A stretch of DNA of 64,000 nt from Parvularcula sp. IMCC14364 (GTDB taxonomy: Bacteria > Pseudomonadota > Alphaproteobacteria > Caulobacterales > Parvularculaceae): assembly GCF_030758415.1 (NCBI RefSeq), contig NZ_CP132334.1, positions 930,001 to 994,000 on the forward strand, written 5' to 3'. Below the pieces are notes generated by a model that saw only the letters and a list, made by a program, of their open reading frames with translations, had not been told where the DNA came from and searched no databases. Within the stretch, counting starts at the first letter, position 1. Each line of letters opens with the position of its first letter. Positions 2,625 through 56,843 of the stretch are shown here, one piece after another. Position numbers and translations under genes: made by a program.

Positions 2625-2937
2625 GCTGCTGCGCGGTGATTTAGCCTGAGCCCGGTGGCTGGTGCAAGCCGTGACGCTCAGCAGAGCGGCCAGGCGGACC
2701 GCCAGGCTTCGCGGGTGTCGCAGGCGTATCTGCGTCGTTTGAGCGTCTCCATCGTTGGCCACGAAAGGATAGCTGCCTTTTTTCGGGCAATTAACCATAT
2801 CAAAATGGCCTGAAGCGCGCCATAAATGTGCCATGCACCGCGTGCCTGTTTCAGGTTACCGGGGAGGAGGGACGTGTGAGAGCACTCACGCGTATCGGGC
2901 CGGTTTTGTGCTGGCATCTGTGGAAGGATAGGGTCCC
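2625..2937. other. intergenic region between tRNA-Arg and the macroglobulin gene
   Basis: About 310 bases without a convincing gene. The left end holds the tRNA promoter. The right end holds the ribosome binding site (AAGGA near 2925) of the alpha-2-macroglobulin gene. Short open frames here lack ribosome binding sites and start codons in sensible places. I see no terminator or repeat. Confidence 0.6.
2639..2667 (-). promoter_or_regulatory. likely promoter of tRNA-Arg
   Basis: On the minus strand TTGCAC (2667-2662) and CTAAAT (2644-2639) are separated by exactly 17 bases. They lie about 15 bases upstream of the mature tRNA 5' end, the expected place for a sigma-70-type tRNA promoter. Confidence 0.5.
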
Positions 2938-5900
2938 ATGTTCGGAAAAAGTCTGGTTACCAGTGTTATCGCGATTGCTGTCGCCTTTGCGGCGGGGCTG
3001 TTCATTGGCCGGGTTGGCTTTCGTGATATTGAAGCCAATACTTTCCAGCCGCCCGTCGGGGACGTTGAAGAACTGACGGCGCAACAGCGTGCCAACATTC
3101 CCTTGCGAGAATATGAAACGGTGCGCGAAGCGGATGCTGCACGTGGCGCGCCGCCTCTGCCGGATGAATTTGCCTTTGCCAGACTGACCCTGGACACCAC
3201 GGATGAAACGCCAAAGGCCTGCTTCACTTTCACGCAGGCGCTGGCGGATGACGTGAATTACGCTGATTTTGTGGAACTGGCCCCTTCAGCACAGGTGGTG
3301 GCGAGCGTTGCCGGTGAAACGGTCTGCCTCGCCGGACTGGATTTTAACCGCGACTATGACGTGACATTGCGCGCGGGATTGCCTGATGCAGCAGGCGAGG
3401 AGATCGGGCGCAGTGAAACAGTCACCGTCTCTTTTGGTGACAAGCCGGCCTATGTGGGGTTTTCCGGCAATGGCGTGATCCTGCCGCGGCTTGAGGCTGA
3501 TGGTCTGGGCCTGGAAACCGTGAATGTGGACAGGCTGAAGGTCAGTATCCACCGGGTCGGGGAGCGCGCCCTTGCCTATAAGAGCATCATGGAAGGCGAT
3601 ACCATCGCAGAGGACCGGTATGGGTATCCCTGGGATCAGGAAGATGGTCAGGATGTTGGGGTCAAGCTCTGGGAAGGCCAGCTTGAGGTAGCAGACCTGC
3701 CCAATCAGGAGGTCACGACGGTATTTCCGCTTGGGGCGGCTCTGGGCGAAGCACGGCGACAGGCCGACGGCGCGTTGCAGCCGGGGGCCTATTTCGTCTC
3801 GGTTGAAGATGACTCGACTGGGCGCACGGACAGTCGGCGCCCGGCCCGTGCCTGGCGCTGGATCCTGTTCACAGACATGGCCCTGACCACCTATCGCGGC
3901 GCTGATGGCATTGATGTTGTGCTCAGGTCCCTGAAGAGTGCTGCACCGGTCGGTGCGGCAAATGTGCGGCTGATTGCGCAGAACAATGACGTTCTGGCGG
4001 AGCTTGAGACGGATGGAAACGGCTATGTGCATTTCCCTGGCCCGGTCACCCGTGGCACAGGCCCGCTGAGCCCGAAAATGATTGTGGCATATGGACCCGA
4101 GAATGATTTCTCCGTGCTTGACCTCTCGCGCTCCCCCCTGGACCTGACAGATCGTGATATTGGCGGGCGCTATGCTGGTGGCCCGGTGGACGCCTATCTC
4201 TATTTTGATCGGGGCATCTATCGGCCCGGCGAGGTGGCGCATATCAGCGGGTTGCTGCGGGACCATGCTGGCGACGCAGTGGCGGACCGTCCGGTAACCC
4301 TGGAACTGCGTCGTCCGAATTATACGATTGCAGAGGAAATTCGTATTGACAGCCTGGAGATCGGTGGTTTCAGCCAAAGCTTCAATGTGCCCTCAGCCTC
4401 GCCGCGCGGCATGTGGACGGCCATATTGAAAGTTGATGGCAGCGAGGAAACCCACGCCGCGACGTTTTCGGTGGAAGATTTTGTGCCCCAGCGGATCGCT
4501 GTGGAGCTGGGCCTTGAAGATGACACACCGGTGCTGGAAGGCGAGCGCCGCGCGATTGATGTGGATGTCCGCTTCCTTTATGGCGCGCCCGGTTCCGGCC
4601 TGAATGTCGAGGGAGAGGCGCGCCTGCGCGTCGATCCTAATCCGTTCCCTGACTATGAGGGATTCAGTTTCGGGGACACGCGGGACACTTTTTCAGACCA
4701 ACGCCTCAATCTGGGTGAAACCATGACGGATGGTGACGGGCAGGCAGCCCTGACGCTGGCGGTTGACCCGGGTATTGCGTCAGGGGGCAAGCCGTTGCGC
4801 GCTGAACTTGTGGTCGGCGTTGCGGAACCCGGCGGCCGGTTTGTGCGCGAAAGCACACGTCTGCCCGTGCGTGTGGATGAAAGATATATTGGTATCCGGC
4901 GCTCAGGCAACAGCCGCCCCGGCAGGAATGAGCCGGTTGAATTTGACCTGGTTCTGCTCGGCCAGGACGGCGCGCCCGTCGATCAGGAAGGGCTTGAGTG
5001 GCGGATTATAGAGGAAGATTACCGTTTCGAGTGGTACCGGCAAAATGGTGAATGGCGCTGGCGCCGTGACTACCGGGATATTCTGATCAGCACAGAGACG
5101 ATTGATGTGCGTGCCGGACGCCTTGCCAACATTTCCCGTCAACTGGATTATGGTTCTTACAGGCTGGAAGTGCGGGATCCCGTAAGCGATGCCTATAGCA
5201 GTGTGCGTTTCTATGCCGGCTGGAACACCTATGCTTCCGGCGCGCAGACGCCGGATCAGGCCAGCCTGACCATACCCGATGACCCTGTCAGACCCGGCGC
5301 ACGCACCAGAGTGACTCTCGCCGCGCCTTATGCTGGCGAAGCTGTGATCGCGATTGCGACTGACCGGGTTCATCAGGTCATGCGGATGGAGGTCAGTGAA
5401 CGGCCGCAGGAAATCATGATTGAAACGGACCCTAACTGGGGCACAGGTTTTTATGTCATGGCGACGATTATCACCCCGCGCGATGTGGTGGACCAGCCCG
5501 TGCCGCGCCGGGCCATGGGGGTCGGTTATGTGCCGTTCGATATGGCGGGCAGCAAACTTGAACTGGCGTTCGAGACAGAGGAGATGATCCGTCCACGCCA
5601 GTCTCTTGACCTGCCCGTGAGAATAGATGGCGCCGACATTGACGAGACCATCATGATGACAGTGGCCGCCGTGGATGAAGGCATTCTGCGTCTGACCAAG
5701 TTTGACAGCCCTGACCCTGCTGGCTGGTATTTCGGCAAGAAGGCACTGGGCGTTCAGGTATATGATGATTATGGCCGGTTGCTCGATGCCAATCTTGGCG
5801 CTGCAACGCGCTTTGGGGGCGACCAGCTGGGCGGTGAGGGGCTGACTGTTGTTCCCACCAAGACGGTTGCCCTGTTCCGGGGGCCAGTCAGTGTGAATGG

Positions 5901-46099: not shown

Positions 46100-46933
46100 G
46101 GGTGTGGACTCAATTGATCCAGCATTTTGCTGCGAAGAGATATATCATGTTGATGAAGTTCCTTCGAGATTTCTCGAACCGTGTAGCCAGCCGTCTCATG
46201 TCTTTCATTTTGCAGAAGAACCGCTCGACAATATTACGCATGGCGTAAAGGCTGGTGTCATGCGGGACCGGATTGCGCGCATTGGACTTGGCGGGAATAA
46301 CCGCCAACGCACCTTCATCGGCGATATCGCGCCTGATCTTCGCACTGCCATAGGCTTTGTCCAGGACCATCGCCAGAGGCGGCATCTCCCAGTCGAGGAA
46401 GACATTCATCACCTGGCTGTCATGAACATGGCCGCCAGTGACCTCAATGCGCAATGGCCTGCCATTTTCATCTACGGCCACGTGAACTTTGCTTGTGCGA
46501 CCGCCCCGTGAGCGTCCAATATCTTCCGCCAGTTCCCCCTTTTTGAGCCACTCGCTGCGCGGTGAGCTTTGACAATCGAGGCGTCTATGAAGATCAGACT
46601 GTCCTCACATTCTTCAGCGAGCGCATCGAATATGCCCTTCCAGACGCCGCGCTCGCCCCACCTGTTATACCGATTGTAAGCAGTCGTGTACGGTCCATAT
46701 CGTTCCGGCAAGTCCCGCCATGGCGCGCCTGTGCGCAAAATGTAAAAGATGCCGTTCAGGATCGTACGATCATCTTTGCGCTTCGGGCCGCGGCTAACCT
46801 TTGGCAACAACGGTTCAATCACCGCCCATTCTTCATCCGACAAATCAAACCGCGCCATTTAAGACTCCCTTTCGGAAATCCCTGAATCACGCTTTGCACA
46901 AACAAATCAATCAGTTAAATTGGGTACAGACCC
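46100..46933 (-). mobile_element. IS5-family (IS427-group) insertion sequence, 834 bp
   Basis: The ends are inverted repeats: GGGTGTGGACTCAATTGA at 46100-46117 and its match GGGTCTGTACCCAATTTA read inward from 46933 (14 of 18 identical). A TA duplication flanks the element (46098-46099 and 46934-46935), as expected for IS427-group target choice. The transposase spans two overlapping minus-strand frames. Length is typical of the group. It splits the alpha/beta hydrolase-membrane gene. Both ends and both frames look intact, so it may still be active. Confidence 0.9.
46110..46858 (-). CDS. IS427-type transposase, two frames joined by -1 frameshift
   Basis: DDE transposase read from orfA (46472-46858, 128 codons: FDLSDEEWAVIEPLLP, Asp in FIDASIVKAHRAAS) and orfB (46110-46481). 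The switch is at the run A5G5 (minus strand, in TCAAAAAGGGGGAAC): after it orfA drifts into an unlike tail, whereas the -1 frame continues GELAEDIGRSRGGRTSKVHVAVDENGRP, matching the family. The second Asp lies in MVLDKAYGSAKI and the Glu in NIVERFFCKMKDMRRLATRFEK. Programmed -1 frameshifting is normal in this group, so this need not be a mutation. Confidence 0.88.
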
Positions 46934-47590
46934 TAGTACCAAGTCCATGGACCCTAGGATCTTTTCTAACCACGTTTGACTGTATGAGAACTCGTCAACC
47001 AAATCGGATGGCAACAAGAAAATATCACTTAGGTAATATTCGAAAAAAATTTCAATTGCATAATATAGTGCGACAGGCACCTCTGAGAGCGAAGACAATC
47101 CTTCAAATTCGCCTATTACATCTCCCAGCCGTTCGTAATCTGAGCTCCAAACGAAGAGCACGGCCAACAACAGCAGCAATCTTGTAAAGGCACTTGTAGT
47201 CACAAACGGGTTGAGGCGTTGTCGGAATTTCAACAACGGTGTTCCGACACTTATCGCCCCACTGATCCGTGGCGAGACATCATCAGTATTATCACGGGAG
47301 AGCTTGTCAAGCGCCATTGCGGTAATCGATCCGCCGTGACTATGCGCTATGATCAAGGGTTTTTCTGGTTGTATACCCAAGGCATCACTGAGGTCGACAG
47401 CAGCCTTACGACGCTCGATTTCGGAATTTGCGCCACTCCAATGGAATGGCTGGACATCAAGTTTCTCAGAAACATATTTCCCAACACCCTCGAAGAAAAA
47501 AGAGCCTTGTTGCCACCACTTGTCTCCAACATCCGAGGCGTCGCCTGCAAATGTTCCATGCACCGAAATGATCGGTTTGGAATCTGACAT
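46934..47590 (-). CDS. alpha/beta hydrolase N-terminal part, cut by IS427
   Basis: 219 codons of a lipase-like alpha/beta hydrolase before the IS junction; the frame continues 8 codons into the IS (TGA at 46907). ATG 47590 has GGAG at spacing 7; the longer frame from 47653 lacks support. The oxyanion-type HG sits in PIISVHGTFAG, and the nucleophile Ser84 is in IIAHSHGGSITAMAL. SGAISVGTPLL is the lipase-like beta strand. A hydrophobic helix follows (residues ~134-149) and more near 172-192. Restored across the IS the protein is 792 residues. No family name is certain; it resembles PGAP1/DUF676-type lipases only in general layout. Confidence 0.75.
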
Positions 47591-47948
47591 GAATTCTCCC
47601 CATACACACACTTGGTAGGCTGATAGCATGGAATTTTGGACTGTAAAAGCCAAGACTATTTCCTATTTTCTTCTGTAAGCTCATATACGGGCGGATATCT
47701 GTCTGAGTAACAGCCTTCCCGTGGCGTCGAGATTTGCGCCAATGTGGCAATTTTATGAAAGATACTGAATGTCACCTTTCGGCGAACAGCTACCGGTTGT
47801 GAAACTCAGGGGCTGGTAAAGGCAGGCCACTCGACTGGCAGGCAAGCGCTGGTCGCTTGTGCGCGATGGCGCCCCTTCAGCCTCTTGCCCTCATGTTGTC
47901 AGCGTAAACATTACAATCTATGGGCCCCCCTTTGTCAGCCTTTAGTCT
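47591..47948. other. intergenic region between the split hydrolase and the orphan gene
   Basis: About 360 bases. The left edge carries the hydrolase ribosome binding site on the minus strand. I see no convincing ORF, tRNA or terminator. The two flanking genes are divergent, so promoters for both should lie here, but no strong consensus was found. Confidence 0.5.
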
Positions 47949-47990
47949 GGGTCTCCCGGCGCATTTCGCGCCTCAAAAAAAAGGAGACCC
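47949..47990 (+). promoter_or_regulatory. nested inverted repeat burying the Shine-Dalgarno of the orphan gene
   Basis: Outer arms GGGTCTCC (47949-47956) and GGAGACCC (47983-47990) are perfect complements of 8 bp. Inside them GGCGC (47958-47962) and GCGCC (47968-47972) form a second stem with a 5-base loop, followed by TCAAAAAAAA. The right outer arm contains GGAG, the ribosome binding site 7 bases before ATG 47994. In RNA the site would be paired, so translation could depend on opening this structure. Confidence 0.6.
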
Positions 47991-47993
47991 CGA

Positions 47994-48641
47994 ATGACTG
48001 CATCAACAACCGCATCAGCCCCACTCAGCCACGGCCGGGACCTTCTGCTCACGCCCCAGTCCCGCATCACCAACCTGCAGACAGCCCTCGACAGCCTGAC
48101 CCTGCAGATCGCCGATCAACGCAGCCTGTTCAATCCGCAGGAAAAGCGCGTGCGCCTGTTGCAGGATCAGGTCCGCCTTGTGGCCAGCCAGATCCGCTCT
48201 TACGAGAAACTCGAAGCCCTGAAAAAAGACATGGGATTGAAAGTTACCATTGCCGAGGCGATGGCCGTGTACAACCAGCGAACCTGTACACCCGCCCCAA
48301 CAGATGCCCCATTTGCAACAGACGTAACGGACAGGGCAGAGGCAAAAGACAAAGACACCAGCGACAAAGTACACGCCCGTCCCACGCCAGCTACAAAAAA
48401 ATCTGACCGGACCACCACGCCCGGCAATGAGATAATAGAAGCAGCCATCACCACCAAAGGGGCAAAACCGCCGCAATCCGCCTCACAACAGCCAGCCCCC
48501 GCCGCACAAGAGGACGTTTTGCCCGGCCTCAGCCTGAAAAAAAATCTCAGCCGGGCGGAGCGCCGCCGTCAGGCAAAGGCCGCGCGCAAAATGCCAGCCG
48601 CGACAGCCGACCTGTTAAACGAGATCACCGCCATGGCCTGA
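47994..48641 (+). CDS. unknown protein with coiled-coil and basic C-terminus
   Basis: 215-residue protein I do not recognise. Residues ~20-80 are predicted coiled-coil (SRITNLQTALDSLTLQIADQ, EKRVRLLQDQVRLVASQIRSYEKLEALKKDMG). The middle (about 85-170) is Thr/Pro/Ala-rich, low complexity. The C-terminus is basic and helical: LSRAERRRQAKAARKMPAATADLLNEITAMA, which could bind nucleic acid. No signal peptide or membrane helix. Its SD is hidden in a nested inverted repeat. Codon choice seems rich in CCC/GCC, unlike the AT-rich hydrolase next to it. A role in a mobile element is possible but unsupported. Confidence 0.65.
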   Translation: MTASTTASAPLSHGRDLLLTPQSRITNLQTALDSLTLQIADQRSLFNPQEKRVRLLQDQVRLVASQIRSYEKLEALKKDMGLKVTIAEAMAVYNQRTCTPAPTDAPFATDVTDRAEAKDKDTSDKVHARPTPATKKSDRTTTPGNEIIEAAITTKGAKPPQSASQQPAPAAQEDVLPGLSLKKNLSRAERRRQAKAARKMPAATADLLNEITAMA

Positions 48642-48738
48642 CCCGAGGCTGCCCCCAGGCGGGCATACGCAATCAGCAGGGCCACCTCCGCCGATTTCCG
48701 GGGCCGTGCTGATTAAGTATTGAGCCTGTCCCTCAGGT

Positions 48739-49101
48739 CTACGTGCGGGCCAGTTCGCCGAAAAAACCCAGAACCTTGACGACTTTCCCCGCATCGTTGA
48801 TTTCGGCCACCTCAAACCCGGGCATCAACAACTCACCATTCAGGTGGATCGCCCAGTGATAGCGGCAAAAATTATTCTGAAACCCGATCTTACTGGCCCG
48901 GCTATAAACAGCACCAGGTATCTGGCGCTGCACCAGTTTCACCATGTCGAGAAAGGCAGCGCGCCCGATAATGTTATGGTTGGGATCGGCGAAATGGACG
49001 TTATGTTCCAGCGCTTCCTCAACCATCGTGGCTTTCAGTGTTTCATCGGTCGTGTTCCACAAGGCCAGCATTTTATCCAGATTTTCGGTATTGGCAGACA
49101 T
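48739..49101 (-). CDS. SnoaL-like (NTF2-fold) protein
   Basis: 120-residue small protein of the NTF2-like/SnoaL-type fold: the pattern DETLKATMVEEALEHNVHFADPNHNIIGRAAFLDMV is typical of polyketide-cyclase-like or ketosteroid-isomerase-like families. It may bind a small hydrophobic ligand; no activity can be assigned. A strong AAGGAG precedes the ATG. It is divergent from the TetR gene (74-base gap), a layout in which the regulator often controls the neighbour. Confidence 0.82.
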   Translation of the reverse strand: MSANTENLDKMLALWNTTDETLKATMVEEALEHNVHFADPNHNIIGRAAFLDMVKLVQRQIPGAVYSRASKIGFQNNFCRYHWAIHLNGELLMPGFEVAEINDAGKVVKVLGFFGELART

Positions 49102-49175
49102 GATGGCTCCTTTAGGCTAAAAACAGACCATTGGTTTGTATTTGTAGGAATTGTTGATCGTTGTAAAGGGGTGGC

Positions 49176-49754
49176 ATGGCAACACAGACACAACGCACCG
49201 AATCTACCAGAGCGCAACTCGTGCAGGCTTTCCGCACGTCACTGCTTGAGCGTGGGCTCGCGGCAACGACAACGCAGCATGTGCTTGCGCGCACAGGTCT
49301 CAGCAAAGGGGCGATGTATCACCACTTCAACAGCAAGACGGACATCATAAAGGCCATCTATGAAGCAGAATCGCGCGGCGCGATTGCACGGGCCGCCGCG
49401 CGTGTTGAGGATATTTCGTCACCGCTGGAAAAACTGATTGGCGCCTGCCTTGCCTGGACAGAGGAAGTCAGGGTGCCGAGTGTTTCGAGAATATTGTTTG
49501 AGATCGGCCCTGCGGCTCTTGGGCCACAGCAGGCAAGGGAGATCGAGGACAGTTACAGCCTGAAGCAGATTGAGCATTTGCTGGAACTGGCGAATGTCGC
49601 GCAGGAAATAAATGTTGCAGATGTCCGATTGACGGCTGCGTTGATAAATGCCCTTGTGGCCGAAGCAACGCTGTACACTTTGCGCAGCGGCAGGGAGTCA
49701 GGGCCTGTGTTGCGAGATGCCATAGGCGCGATACTCAAATCATGCTCAGACTGA
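49176..49754 (+). CDS. TetR-family transcriptional regulator
   Basis: 192-residue TetR regulator. The N-terminal helix-turn-helix includes TRAQLVQAFRTSLLERGLAATTTQHVLARTGLSKGAMYHHF, with NSKTDIIKAIYEAE closing the DNA-binding domain. The remainder is the helical ligand-binding domain. It is divergent from the SnoaL-like gene and probably represses that gene and itself (inference from layout). Its end overlaps the start of the DUF1491 gene by 13 bases. Confidence 0.92.
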   Translation: MATQTQRTESTRAQLVQAFRTSLLERGLAATTTQHVLARTGLSKGAMYHHFNSKTDIIKAIYEAESRGAIARAAARVEDISSPLEKLIGACLAWTEEVRVPSVSRILFEIGPAALGPQQAREIEDSYSLKQIEHLLELANVAQEINVADVRLTAALINALVAEATLYTLRSGRESGPVLRDAIGAILKSCSD

Positions 49755-50065
49755 AGACAGCAATTTTCATCAAGGCCTGGCTGCGCCGGGCACAGGCCGC
49801 AGGTGCTTTTGCGGCCGTGGTGCGCAAGGGGGACCCGGATGGCGGTCTTGTGATCGTCAAGGTGGTCAATGCCGAGCGTCAGGCATGTGCGTGGATTGAA
49901 ACCTATGCCGAGCGTGAAGCAGACAGGTGGCGCGCGCTGACTGATGCGTTCATGCCGGAAGGTGAGATTGACGAGAAGGTCAACCGGGAATTGAAGTTTG
50001 ATTCCGATGCGTGGCTGGTGGAAGCAGAAGACCGGGCGGGGCGAAATTTTCTGGATACTGACTGA
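49742..50065 (+). CDS. DUF1491 family protein
   Basis: 107-residue conserved alphaproteobacterial protein. The sequence LKTAIFIKAWLRRAQAAGAFAAVVRKGDPDGGLVIVKV and the acidic RFDLEVE-like ending DAWLVEAEDRAGRNFLD match the DUF1491 family of unknown function. It is a compact, cytoplasmic alpha/beta protein. It starts inside the TetR gene (13-base overlap), so it is translationally coupled to it. Confidence 0.88.
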   Translation: MLRLKTAIFIKAWLRRAQAAGAFAAVVRKGDPDGGLVIVKVVNAERQACAWIETYAEREADRWRALTDAFMPEGEIDEKVNRELKFDSDAWLVEAEDRAGRNFLDTD

Positions 50066-54829: not shown

Positions 54830-55121
54830 ATGGTTTATTGGCATATTAATGTGACGTGCTCCCATTGACGCCCGTGGTCACAAGGCGCAGTCTTTTCAAT
54901 CATCTGAGCAAACTTATGTGCCCCCCTGTGGCATGGCCTATTCTCTTTCGGTGGATCACCGGGAAATGGAGGCAAGCGGCGTGAACGTCACTGGGCCGGT
55001 TTATCTGCCGCAGAATTCATTGGCCTTTTCTGCTTGAAGCGGGCAGTTTTCCGGGACAATATCTGGAAAAACCTGTCGCTGGTGGCAGGGCATACAAGAA
55101 GTATCAAAAGGGAGTATTCGC

Positions 55122-56843
55122 ATGCAGGGACTGATGATGGACTATCCGCTCTTGATCAAGGGCATCATGAACCACGCGCTGAGGACGTTTTCCGAGCAGG
55201 AAGTCGTCACGCGCCTCGTGGAAGGCGGCATCCATCGCTATACCTATGGCGACAGCTACAAGCGCATGTGTCAGGCGGCCCATGCCCTGCAGGAGATGGG
55301 AGTCAAGAAAGGCGACCGCGTTGCCGTCATGGGCTGGAATACCCACCGTCAGCTGGAGCTGTATTACGCGATCAGCTGCATTGGCGCGATCTGCCACACC
55401 ATCAATCCGCGCCTCGGGCCGGAAAATGCGAATTACGTGATAAACCATGCGGGCGACAGCGTGTTGTTCTATGACACAACCTTCCAGCCGCTGGTGGAAG
55501 CGCTGGCGCCCGGCATCAAATGCGTCAAAAAGTTTGTCGTCCTGACCGACGCGGCGAACAAGCCGGACTCCAAGCTGAAGGCCGATACCTATGAGGAACT
55601 GATTGCGGGCAAGCCTGAAGCGTTTGACTGGCCGGATTTCGATGAGAACACGGCCAGCGCCATGTGCTATACCTCCGGCACGACTGGCAAGCCGAAAGGT
55701 GTTCTCTATTCTCACCGCTCAACTGTTCTTCAGGCGATGGTTACCTCCCTGCCGACCTCATTCGGGGCTGAACTTTCCGATGTTGTGTTGCCGGTTGTGC
55801 CCATGTTCCACGTCAATGCCTGGAACGTGCCGTATTCTGCCCTGATGGGCGGGATGAAACTCGTGTTCCCCGGGCCGGGTCTTGATGGCGCCAGCCTTTA
55901 TGAACTGATGGAGGCCGAGAAGGTCACCTATGCGCTTGGTGTGCCGACGGTCTGGCTGAATCTACTGAATTATATTGAGGGTGAAGGCAAGACATTCAGT
56001 TCGCTGAAATACTCCCTGATCGGTGGGTCAGCGCTGCCGGAAAAAATCATTCGTGGCTATGACAAGCATGGTGTGCGCTGTCGTCAGGGCTGGGGCATGA
56101 CAGAAATGTCACCGACCGGCACGACCAATTTCGAGCCAGTCGGCTTTTACGACTTGCCGATTGATGAGCGCATTCCCTATCAGTTGAAACAGGGCAAGGC
56201 GTTGCCATTTGTGGACATGCGGATCGTTTCCGATGATGGCAAAATTCTGCCTCATGACGGGGAGCAGTCCGGCCACTTGCAGGTGCGCGGGCCATCCGTT
56301 CTCAAGGGCTATTATGACCACGACAAACCGACCCTGACGCCCGATGGCTGGTTTGACACTGGTGACGTGGCGACGATTGACGAGACCGGCATGTTGCTGA
56401 TTACTGACCGCGCCAAGGATGTGATCAAGTCCGGTGGCGAATGGATTTCCACCATCGACATTGAGAATGCAGCCCTTTCCCATGCCGCCGTGGCACAGGC
56501 CGCTGTGATCGGGATGCCGCACCCGAAATGGGACGAGCGTCCTTTGCTTATTGTGGAACTGGTGCCAGGCGCAGATGCTGATCCGCAACAGATATTGCAA
56601 TCCGTCAGGGACCAGTTGCCAAAACTGTCGTGGCCGGATGATATTCAGATCGTTGACGAAATTCCGTTGGGCGCAACAGGCAAGGTTTTGAAAACCAAGC
56701 TGCGCGAAATGTTCAAGGATTATGTGCTGCCGGAATTGCGTGAGGGCGGTGGCACCTCTATGTCAGCCAGCGCTTCCGCGACGGACATTGATGCCGAAAA
56801 GAAAAAATCCGGCTTTCCGTTCCTGCGCCGTAAAGGAAAATAG
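55122..56843 (+). CDS. acyl-CoA synthetase (AMP-binding, medium/long chain)
   Basis: 573-residue AMP-binding enzyme that activates fatty acids to acyl-CoA. The ATP-binding P-loop CYTSGTTGKPKGVLYSHRS, the RQGWGMTEMSPTGT core, and the GWFDTGDVATIDETGMLLITDRAKDVIKSGGEWIS block are all present, as is the C-terminal LPLGATGKVLKTKLRE lysine motif. Medium/long-chain enzymes such as AlkK share this layout, but chain length is not deducible. GGGAG precedes the ATG. It stands alone between AT-rich DNA and a histidine phosphatase. Confidence 0.94.
   Translation: MQGLMMDYPLLIKGIMNHALRTFSEQEVVTRLVEGGIHRYTYGDSYKRMCQAAHALQEMGVKKGDRVAVMGWNTHRQLELYYAISCIGAICHTINPRLGPENANYVINHAGDSVLFYDTTFQPLVEALAPGIKCVKKFVVLTDAANKPDSKLKADTYEELIAGKPEAFDWPDFDENTASAMCYTSGTTGKPKGVLYSHRSTVLQAMVTSLPTSFGAELSDVVLPVVPMFHVNAWNVPYSALMGGMKLVFPGPGLDGASLYELMEAEKVTYALGVPTVWLNLLNYIEGEGKTFSSLKYSLIGGSALPEKIIRGYDKHGVRCRQGWGMTEMSPTGTTNFEPVGFYDLPIDERIPYQLKQGKALPFVDMRIVSDDGKILPHDGEQSGHLQVRGPSVLKGYYDHDKPTLTPDGWFDTGDVATIDETGMLLITDRAKDVIKSGGEWISTIDIENAALSHAAVAQAAVIGMPHPKWDERPLLIVELVPGADADPQQILQSVRDQLPKLSWPDDIQIVDEIPLGATGKVLKTKLREMFKDYVLPELREGGGTSMSASASATDIDAEKKKSGFPFLRRKGK

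Follow-up and report, generated by a model that had tools for sequence, protein, structure and literature searches.

What can a hairpin over a ribosome binding site regulate when half of it appears to lie in the gene's own promoter? This question is raised by a 215-residue gene (47994 to 48641, forward strand) in a 64,000-nucleotide stretch of the Parvularcula sp. IMCC14364 genome (NZ_CP132334.1, positions 930,001 to 994,000), referred to here as the window. An initial annotation described an orphan gene whose Shine-Dalgarno (SD) sequence is locked in a nested hairpin, and suggested that a switchable RNA structure would fit. Our tentative answer, which falls somewhat short of likely and depends on a predicted transcription start, is that the hairpin acts as a translation lock on RNA read through from upstream: because half of it apparently belongs to the promoter, it probably silences only read-through RNA.

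The hairpin over the SD sequence

The hairpin proved to be laid out as annotated. Its 5' arm, GGGTCTCC (47949 to 47956), overlaps the promoter discriminator, and its 3' arm, GGAGACCC (47983 to 47990), includes the SD motif GGAG. Between them lie an inner stem-loop, GGCGC-ATTTC-GCGCC (47958 to 47972), and a run of eight A residues preceding the SD (47975 to 47982), which has 7 to 9 A in other copies of the leader in the same genome. All four features are on the forward strand, and the start codon is the ATG at 47994. The folding check suggested with the annotation, run on positions 47930 to 48020, gave -27.4 kcal/mol, where shuffled sequences averaged -18.8 (z -2.99) and 1 of 200 was equally stable. 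When a 15-nucleotide segment over the 5' arm was paired with the SD/start region, 24 of 1,000 shuffles paired as well or better.

A repeated, genus-restricted unit

The gene is not the lone gene that the word orphan implied. The genome, a single contig (C1) of 3,417,277 bases, contains six gene copies and a leader-only seventh. Besides the window copy (977994 to 978638; c978k), genes are found at 719284 to 719838 (c719k), 405660 to 406295 (c406k), 368848 to 369495 (c369k), 2684114 to 2684749 (c2684k), and 173149 to 173712 (c173k); in their matched parts, these five share 83 to 99% amino acid identity with the window protein. The truncated leader copy (2685974 to 2686085; c2686k) diverges a few codons into the gene. 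BLAST comparisons between the copies, together with alignments, put the longest stretch that the window copy has in common with the others at 47782 to 48683 (forward strand), comprising leader, gene, and a short 3' tail with ends that vary; we refer to this stretch as the unit.

Diverged copies of the unit gene occur in two of five congeners, both Aquisalinus MAGs (G001 and G004). Among 100 relatives including the genome itself, four matched, namely the genome itself, G001, G004, and, weakly, G041 (E 4e-4), the last of which was not reproduced by a profile search of the family (62 family genomes). In a sample of the class, 2 of 385 genomes matched, one being the genome itself and the other marginal at E 5e-4. 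A first scan of a genome contig collection returned no homologues, an alignment-based scan of it returned four loci, all in the two Aquisalinus MAGs, and a viral contig collection contained no homologues of the unit gene. Judged by these searches, the unit gene family is dispersed and genus restricted. A diverged subfamily, subfamily II, came to light in G004 (E 3.8e-6) and G001 (E 2e-4) when the 62 family genomes were searched with the profile, and the promoter pattern search described below added members in the genome itself, at 2665747 and 2669980. In an hhalign comparison (E 1.4e-5, probability 80%), the coiled-coil core is the part over which the two subfamilies align.

The own-genome copies are recent, with third codon positions 87.5% identical. 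Unit proteins are 43 to 48% identical across species versus 83 to 100% within the genome, a difference that within-genome homogenisation or repeated re-colonisation would explain. The upstream neighbour is divergently oriented in seven of nine unit copies (own genome, G001, and G004; gene calls by eye); by eye, the upstream gene is co-directional at c369k and, 1.1 kb away, at the copy on contig C108 of G004. At c719k, and at the copies on C266 of G001 and C95 of G004, the 3' end faces a BCCT-type transporter followed by an FAD oxidoreductase (by eye); these transporters are 90 to 91% identical between species, and the synteny is one-sided only. The unit consists of one gene, no transposase family or terminal inverted repeats were recognised in it, and its ends differ between copies. 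Four loci were searched against the genus for a mobile element with precise ends, a possibility that drew no support there: congener matches were scattered pieces of about 67 to 91% identity, and the congener flanks were too diverged for an empty site to be resolved.

Several copies have distinctive surroundings. Copy c173k (locus L011) lies between two 932-bp stretches that are identical, mutually inverted, and carry transposase genes (1635 to 2566 and 4453 to 5384 of the locus), an arrangement that resembles a composite transposon. In the window, positions 46110 to 46858 encode a transposase in two overlapping open reading frames, and the same DNA occurs near c2684k. At 2912 to 4886 of locus L010, an ArsR-like/SRPBCC-like gene pair is enclosed by a full unit and a truncated leader that point the same way, and a G001 copy (L035) likewise lies divergent to a pair of this kind. 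Downstream of c369k (L009, query positions 2674 to 2967), a stretch of as much as about 270 bp recurs at six other places in the genome at 75 to 83% identity.

The covariation check called for in the initial annotation could be carried out on ten leaders, nine of them distinct, from the genome and its congeners. Over the nine distinct leaders, 94.4% of outer-stem cells and 90.9% of inner-stem cells are paired. One outer-stem pair is G-C in the genome and C-G in all three congener leaders; these three form one clade, so the swap counts as one event. Another outer-stem pair is gone in the same three congener leaders and one is gone in c369k, while the inner stem has lost its first pair in the three congener leaders and another pair in c406k. 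Covariation thus backs the stem, thinly.

The promoter and the predicted start

Upstream of the hairpin lies a promoter box, AATCTATGGGCCCCC (47915 to 47929, forward strand), recognised by pattern search and aligned sites and predicted to span -40 to -26. The pattern AAYYTATGGGCCC matches 16 times in the genome, 7 times in G004, 6 times in G001, once each in G002 and G003, and never in G005, whereas the reversed pattern, used as a control, gave 2 matches in the six genomes together. The genomes with 16, 7, and 6 matches are the three that have the unit gene; the three congeners without the gene have 0 to 1. We aligned 18 non-unit sites from the genome, G001, and G004, dropping identical ones and taking the first A of the box as the origin of the column numbers. 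Every one of them has TA at columns 28 and 29 and 16 have T at column 33, and C occupies box columns 13 and 14, which lie beyond the searched pattern, in 17 and 16 of the 18. The nine distinct unit sites all have T28, A29, and T33. This -10 element, TAGTCT in the window copy (47943 to 47948, forward strand), stands at a fixed spacing from the box; by eye, the box matches in the outgroups G002 and G003 have no such element. A TTGTCA/TATGGG promoter, our initial guess by eye, was dropped once the spacing between the box and the downstream -10 proved constant. An RNA helix proposed by RNAalifold (47918 to 47925 with 47938 to 47945, one two-sided change) was also set aside: its bases are those of box, spacer, and -10, so we read its conservation as that of promoter sequence. 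Between the genome and its congeners, the box is 90% identical, the spacer 64%, the -10 78%, the 5' arm 75%, and the 3' arm 67%, compared with 56% for the coding sequence.

The box plus -10 was not found in the viral contig collection. In the window it matches twice versus 0.18 expected; the second match (54911 to 54944, one mismatch) lies about 180 bases upstream of an acyl-CoA-ligase-like open reading frame (55122 to 56843). Among the literature matches listed for TATGGGCCC as a promoter sequence, all concern other subjects, going by titles and the first lines of abstracts, and publications on Aquisalinus, judged by title, included none on the box or the gene. On the grounds of these literature searches, box and gene are apparently not in print.

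With the last T of the -10 set at position -7, +1 falls at column 40, which in the window is 47955 (forward strand), inside the 5' arm. Consistent with this placement, gltD-like reading frames of the genome and G004 have ATG at column 40, as a leaderless start would. Only 4 of the 18 sites have a purine in that column, so the prediction may be off by about two bases. A start near 47955 would leave most of the 5' arm (-6 to +2) out of the gene's own transcript.

This prediction bears directly on the role first proposed for the hairpin, that of an element in the normal 5' UTR that would open in response to temperature, a small RNA, or a protein, which might be the basic product itself. The strong fold, the conserved stem, and the conserved basic C-terminal motif of the protein all speak for such a switch, which nevertheless requires a transcript that begins at 47949 or upstream, and the conserved -10 ends at 47948. 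Nor is the leader a recognised regulatory RNA, since an Rfam 15 search of positions 46800 to 49800 returned two matches, the better at E 0.67 and 17.3 bits, far below the gathering cut-off of 40, and assigned no family. We consider this explanation unlikely. What stands of the earlier proposal is a foldable, conserved structure that can close the SD; a thermosensor, small-RNA target, or autorepressor site in the ordinary mRNA is unsupported, as the predicted +1 near 47955 cuts the 5' arm and most of that arm precedes it.

SD accessibility and arm complementarity

To follow how the 5' end affects the SD, we computed the mean unpaired probability of GGAG in RNA folded from different starts at ten unit sites. 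For starts at columns -20 to 34 it was at most 0.016 in nine of the ten sites, c369k giving 0.009 to 0.29. For a start at the predicted column 40, the computed value was 0.26 to 0.53 in all ten. A similar jump, from about 0.2 to 0.44 and 0.55, is seen in the leaders of gene transfer agent (GTA)-like operons of G004 and G001, which carry the same box, and from 0.19 to 0.49 in the G004 subfamily II leader. The jump is small in the own-genome GTA-like leader and absent in own-genome subfamily II.

In the window copy the transition is steep, with values of 0.001, 0.13, and 0.53 for starts at columns 36, 38, and 40. Since these columns fall within the plausible range of starts, polymerase might itself choose between starts a few bases apart, a longer RNA closing the SD and a shorter one opening it. 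Column 36, however, is only 3 bases past the -10, closer than usual, and the start region is rich in C and T with no clear alternative purine start; regulation by start-site switching therefore seems improbable.

Complementarity itself was examined in 21 leaders by pairing columns 30 to 44 with the SD/start region and counting, per 1,000 shuffles, those at least as good. Eight of the ten unit sites were included, c719k being left out because its stretch is identical to that of c978k and c2686k because it has no gene. The unit leaders gave 24, 10, 199, 23, 45, 46, 66, and 25, the 199 belonging to the poorly pairing c369k. Subfamily II leaders gave 24, 232, and 31, GTA-like leaders 1, 98, and 11, and the others 984, 7, 688, 909, 870, 116, and 49. 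Complementarity to the SD thus occurs mainly in unit, subfamily II, and GTA-like leaders, the exceptions being argG of G004 and C72 of G001. Because leaders of one group are related to each other, the per-leader figures were left uncombined.

These counts are also where another alternative must be weighed, namely, that the complementarity has no function: discriminator and SD region would be separately constrained or inherited, and their pairing would be a by-product that persists because the unit was copied recently. Several observations already described would fit, including the recency of the own-genome copies, the single two-sided change in an outer stem from which the congeners and c369k have each lost a pair, and the divergent upstream neighbours of seven of nine copies. 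Against it, seven of the eight tested unit leaders beat 93 to 99% of their shuffles, and complementarity recurs in GTA-like and subfamily II leaders of different sequence. We regard the by-product explanation as doubtful, with an appreciable chance of being right.

Other genes with the promoter box

Downstream of the box lie the unit genes, subfamily II genes, a GTA-like operon in all three genomes, and, by eye, gltD, argG, tlyA, and others. The GTA-like operon of the genome, a virus-derived gene-transfer cluster (G000:C1:2625556-2632700; L127 and L133), encodes a large terminase, portal, head protease, capsid, adaptor, and tail genes according to PHROGs, and in G001 and G004 the box precedes the same first gene of the operon. 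A promoter type common to unit and GTA-like operon is suggestive of a GTA link; the box class also serves housekeeping-like genes, among them the acyl-CoA-ligase-like one in the window, so we refrain from counting the unit among GTA genes. Unit copies are not directly upstream of terL, which lies in L133 with the units elsewhere.

A wider scheme would have a lineage-specific promoter class control the GTA-like cluster and two dispersed coiled-coil families, with a discriminator/SD lock tying translation to the start site in all three, and the repeated proteins, which each species would have homogenised across its loci, acting as GTA-linked adaptors for packaging or antitermination. Taken whole, we would give this scheme little credence.

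The protein of the unit

The unit protein is predicted to consist of a helix hairpin (residues 21 to 97), a variable linker, and a conserved basic C-terminal motif, KKNLSRAERRRQAKAARK (codons 182 to 199; 48537 to 48590, forward strand). The coiled coil of the initial annotation is upheld by a confident helix hairpin in the structure model (residues 21 to 41 and 51 to 97); its basic C-terminus would be a helix of low confidence. The modelled linker is disordered, the C-terminal helices are of low confidence, and the mean pLDDT is 62.1, poor outside the helix hairpin. Substitution rates (NG86; four intact own-genome copies, six pairs) follow the same division: dN is 0 to 0.012 versus a dS of 0.06 to 0.14 in the core (residues 20 to 95), 0.12 to 0.19 versus 0.18 to 0.33 in the linker, and 0.02 to 0.06 versus 0.15 to 0.25 in the basic C-terminal part. 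By this estimate the coiled-coil core is under strong purifying selection. The basic motif opens with an A8 run (48537 to 48544), which has 9 A and 7 A in two of the six own-genome copies (L007 and L011), frameshifting them near the C terminus; no sign was seen that slippage at this tract has a function.

Pfam, PHROGs, NCBIfam, and PDB sequences offered no convincing relative. The protein is a short coiled coil like those of the SlyX family (Pfam PF04102), but the match, at E 0.4 and 11.8 bits, is below the gathering cut-off of 30, and membership was rejected. A PADLOC match to SngA (E 0.0015) extends over almost all of the window protein; the congener protein has no such match. Small-terminase homology was likewise rejected: hhalign against the protein at the terS position of the own-genome GTA-like operon gave E 0.055 and a probability of 1%, and fold searches had no terminase among the matches listed. 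The RcGTA small terminase gp1 is reported to combine a coiled-coil pair with a conserved C-terminal helix, with no helix-turn-helix seen (PMC6854486). The unit protein is like gp1 in being helical and unlike it in that its gene is not beside the large terminase.

A proposed translation lock on read-through RNA

The reading that we favour, a lock on read-through RNA, would work as follows. The unit gene would be driven by the box/-10 promoter type that the GTA-like operon also uses. Transcripts from this promoter would start inside the 5' arm, retain the inner stem-loop, and present an open, A-rich SD, and so would be translatable. RNA arriving from upstream would carry the complete 5' arm, fold into the nested hairpin, and not be translated. 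The purpose of such a lock may be that the protein is produced only upon firing of its own promoter.

The repeated unit, the box and the -10 at constant spacing from it, the complementarity, and the jump in computed accessibility are observations; precisely where transcription starts, how translation is affected, and what the lock is for are what we infer from them. The weakest point is need: with the nearest upstream gene divergent in seven of nine unit copies, there would be little read-through to guard against. It also counts against the lock that RNA starting at column 36 would have its SD shut once more, that c369k pairs poorly, and that the jump is weak in the own-genome GTA-like leader and absent in own-genome subfamily II.

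If the lock is real, the position of one SD-hairpin arm within the promoter discriminator would make a gene's translation depend on its own promoter, and costly modules such as a gene transfer agent could be protected in this way from accidental read-through. The analysis gives a handle on an uncharacterised promoter box of Aquisalinus genomes, and it argues for checking an SD hairpin against the transcription start before naming it a riboswitch or thermosensor.

Comparison with known systems

The insertion sequences IS10 and IS50 have read-through locks in which RNA from outside folds over the SD and RNA from their own promoter does not. The unit is like them in being multicopy and in that, on computed accessibility with the predicted start, its SD would be closed in outside RNA and free in own-promoter RNA. 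It differs from them in having no transposase or recognised terminal inverted repeats, in having an arm of the hairpin in the promoter discriminator, and in that the same trait occurs in a GTA-like operon. Escherichia coli pyrC exemplifies start-site switching, in which polymerase picks starts a few bases apart and leaves the SD open or closed. There too a few bases at the 5' end decide SD pairing; pyrC is an unrelated gene, and the unit has no sign of alternative starts.

In Caulobacter, GafY and IHF are reported to switch on the GTA cluster together with about 18 further promoters, with a putative GafY site 113 to 123 bases upstream of the start (PMC11150451). The box described here, by comparison, overlaps the -35 region (about -40 to -26), differs in sequence, and belongs to a class that also serves housekeeping-like genes. 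It is like the regulons of Caulobacter GafY (PMC11150451) and Rhodobacter GafA (PMC9638019) in that a GTA-like cluster and genes elsewhere in the genome are served by a common promoter type.
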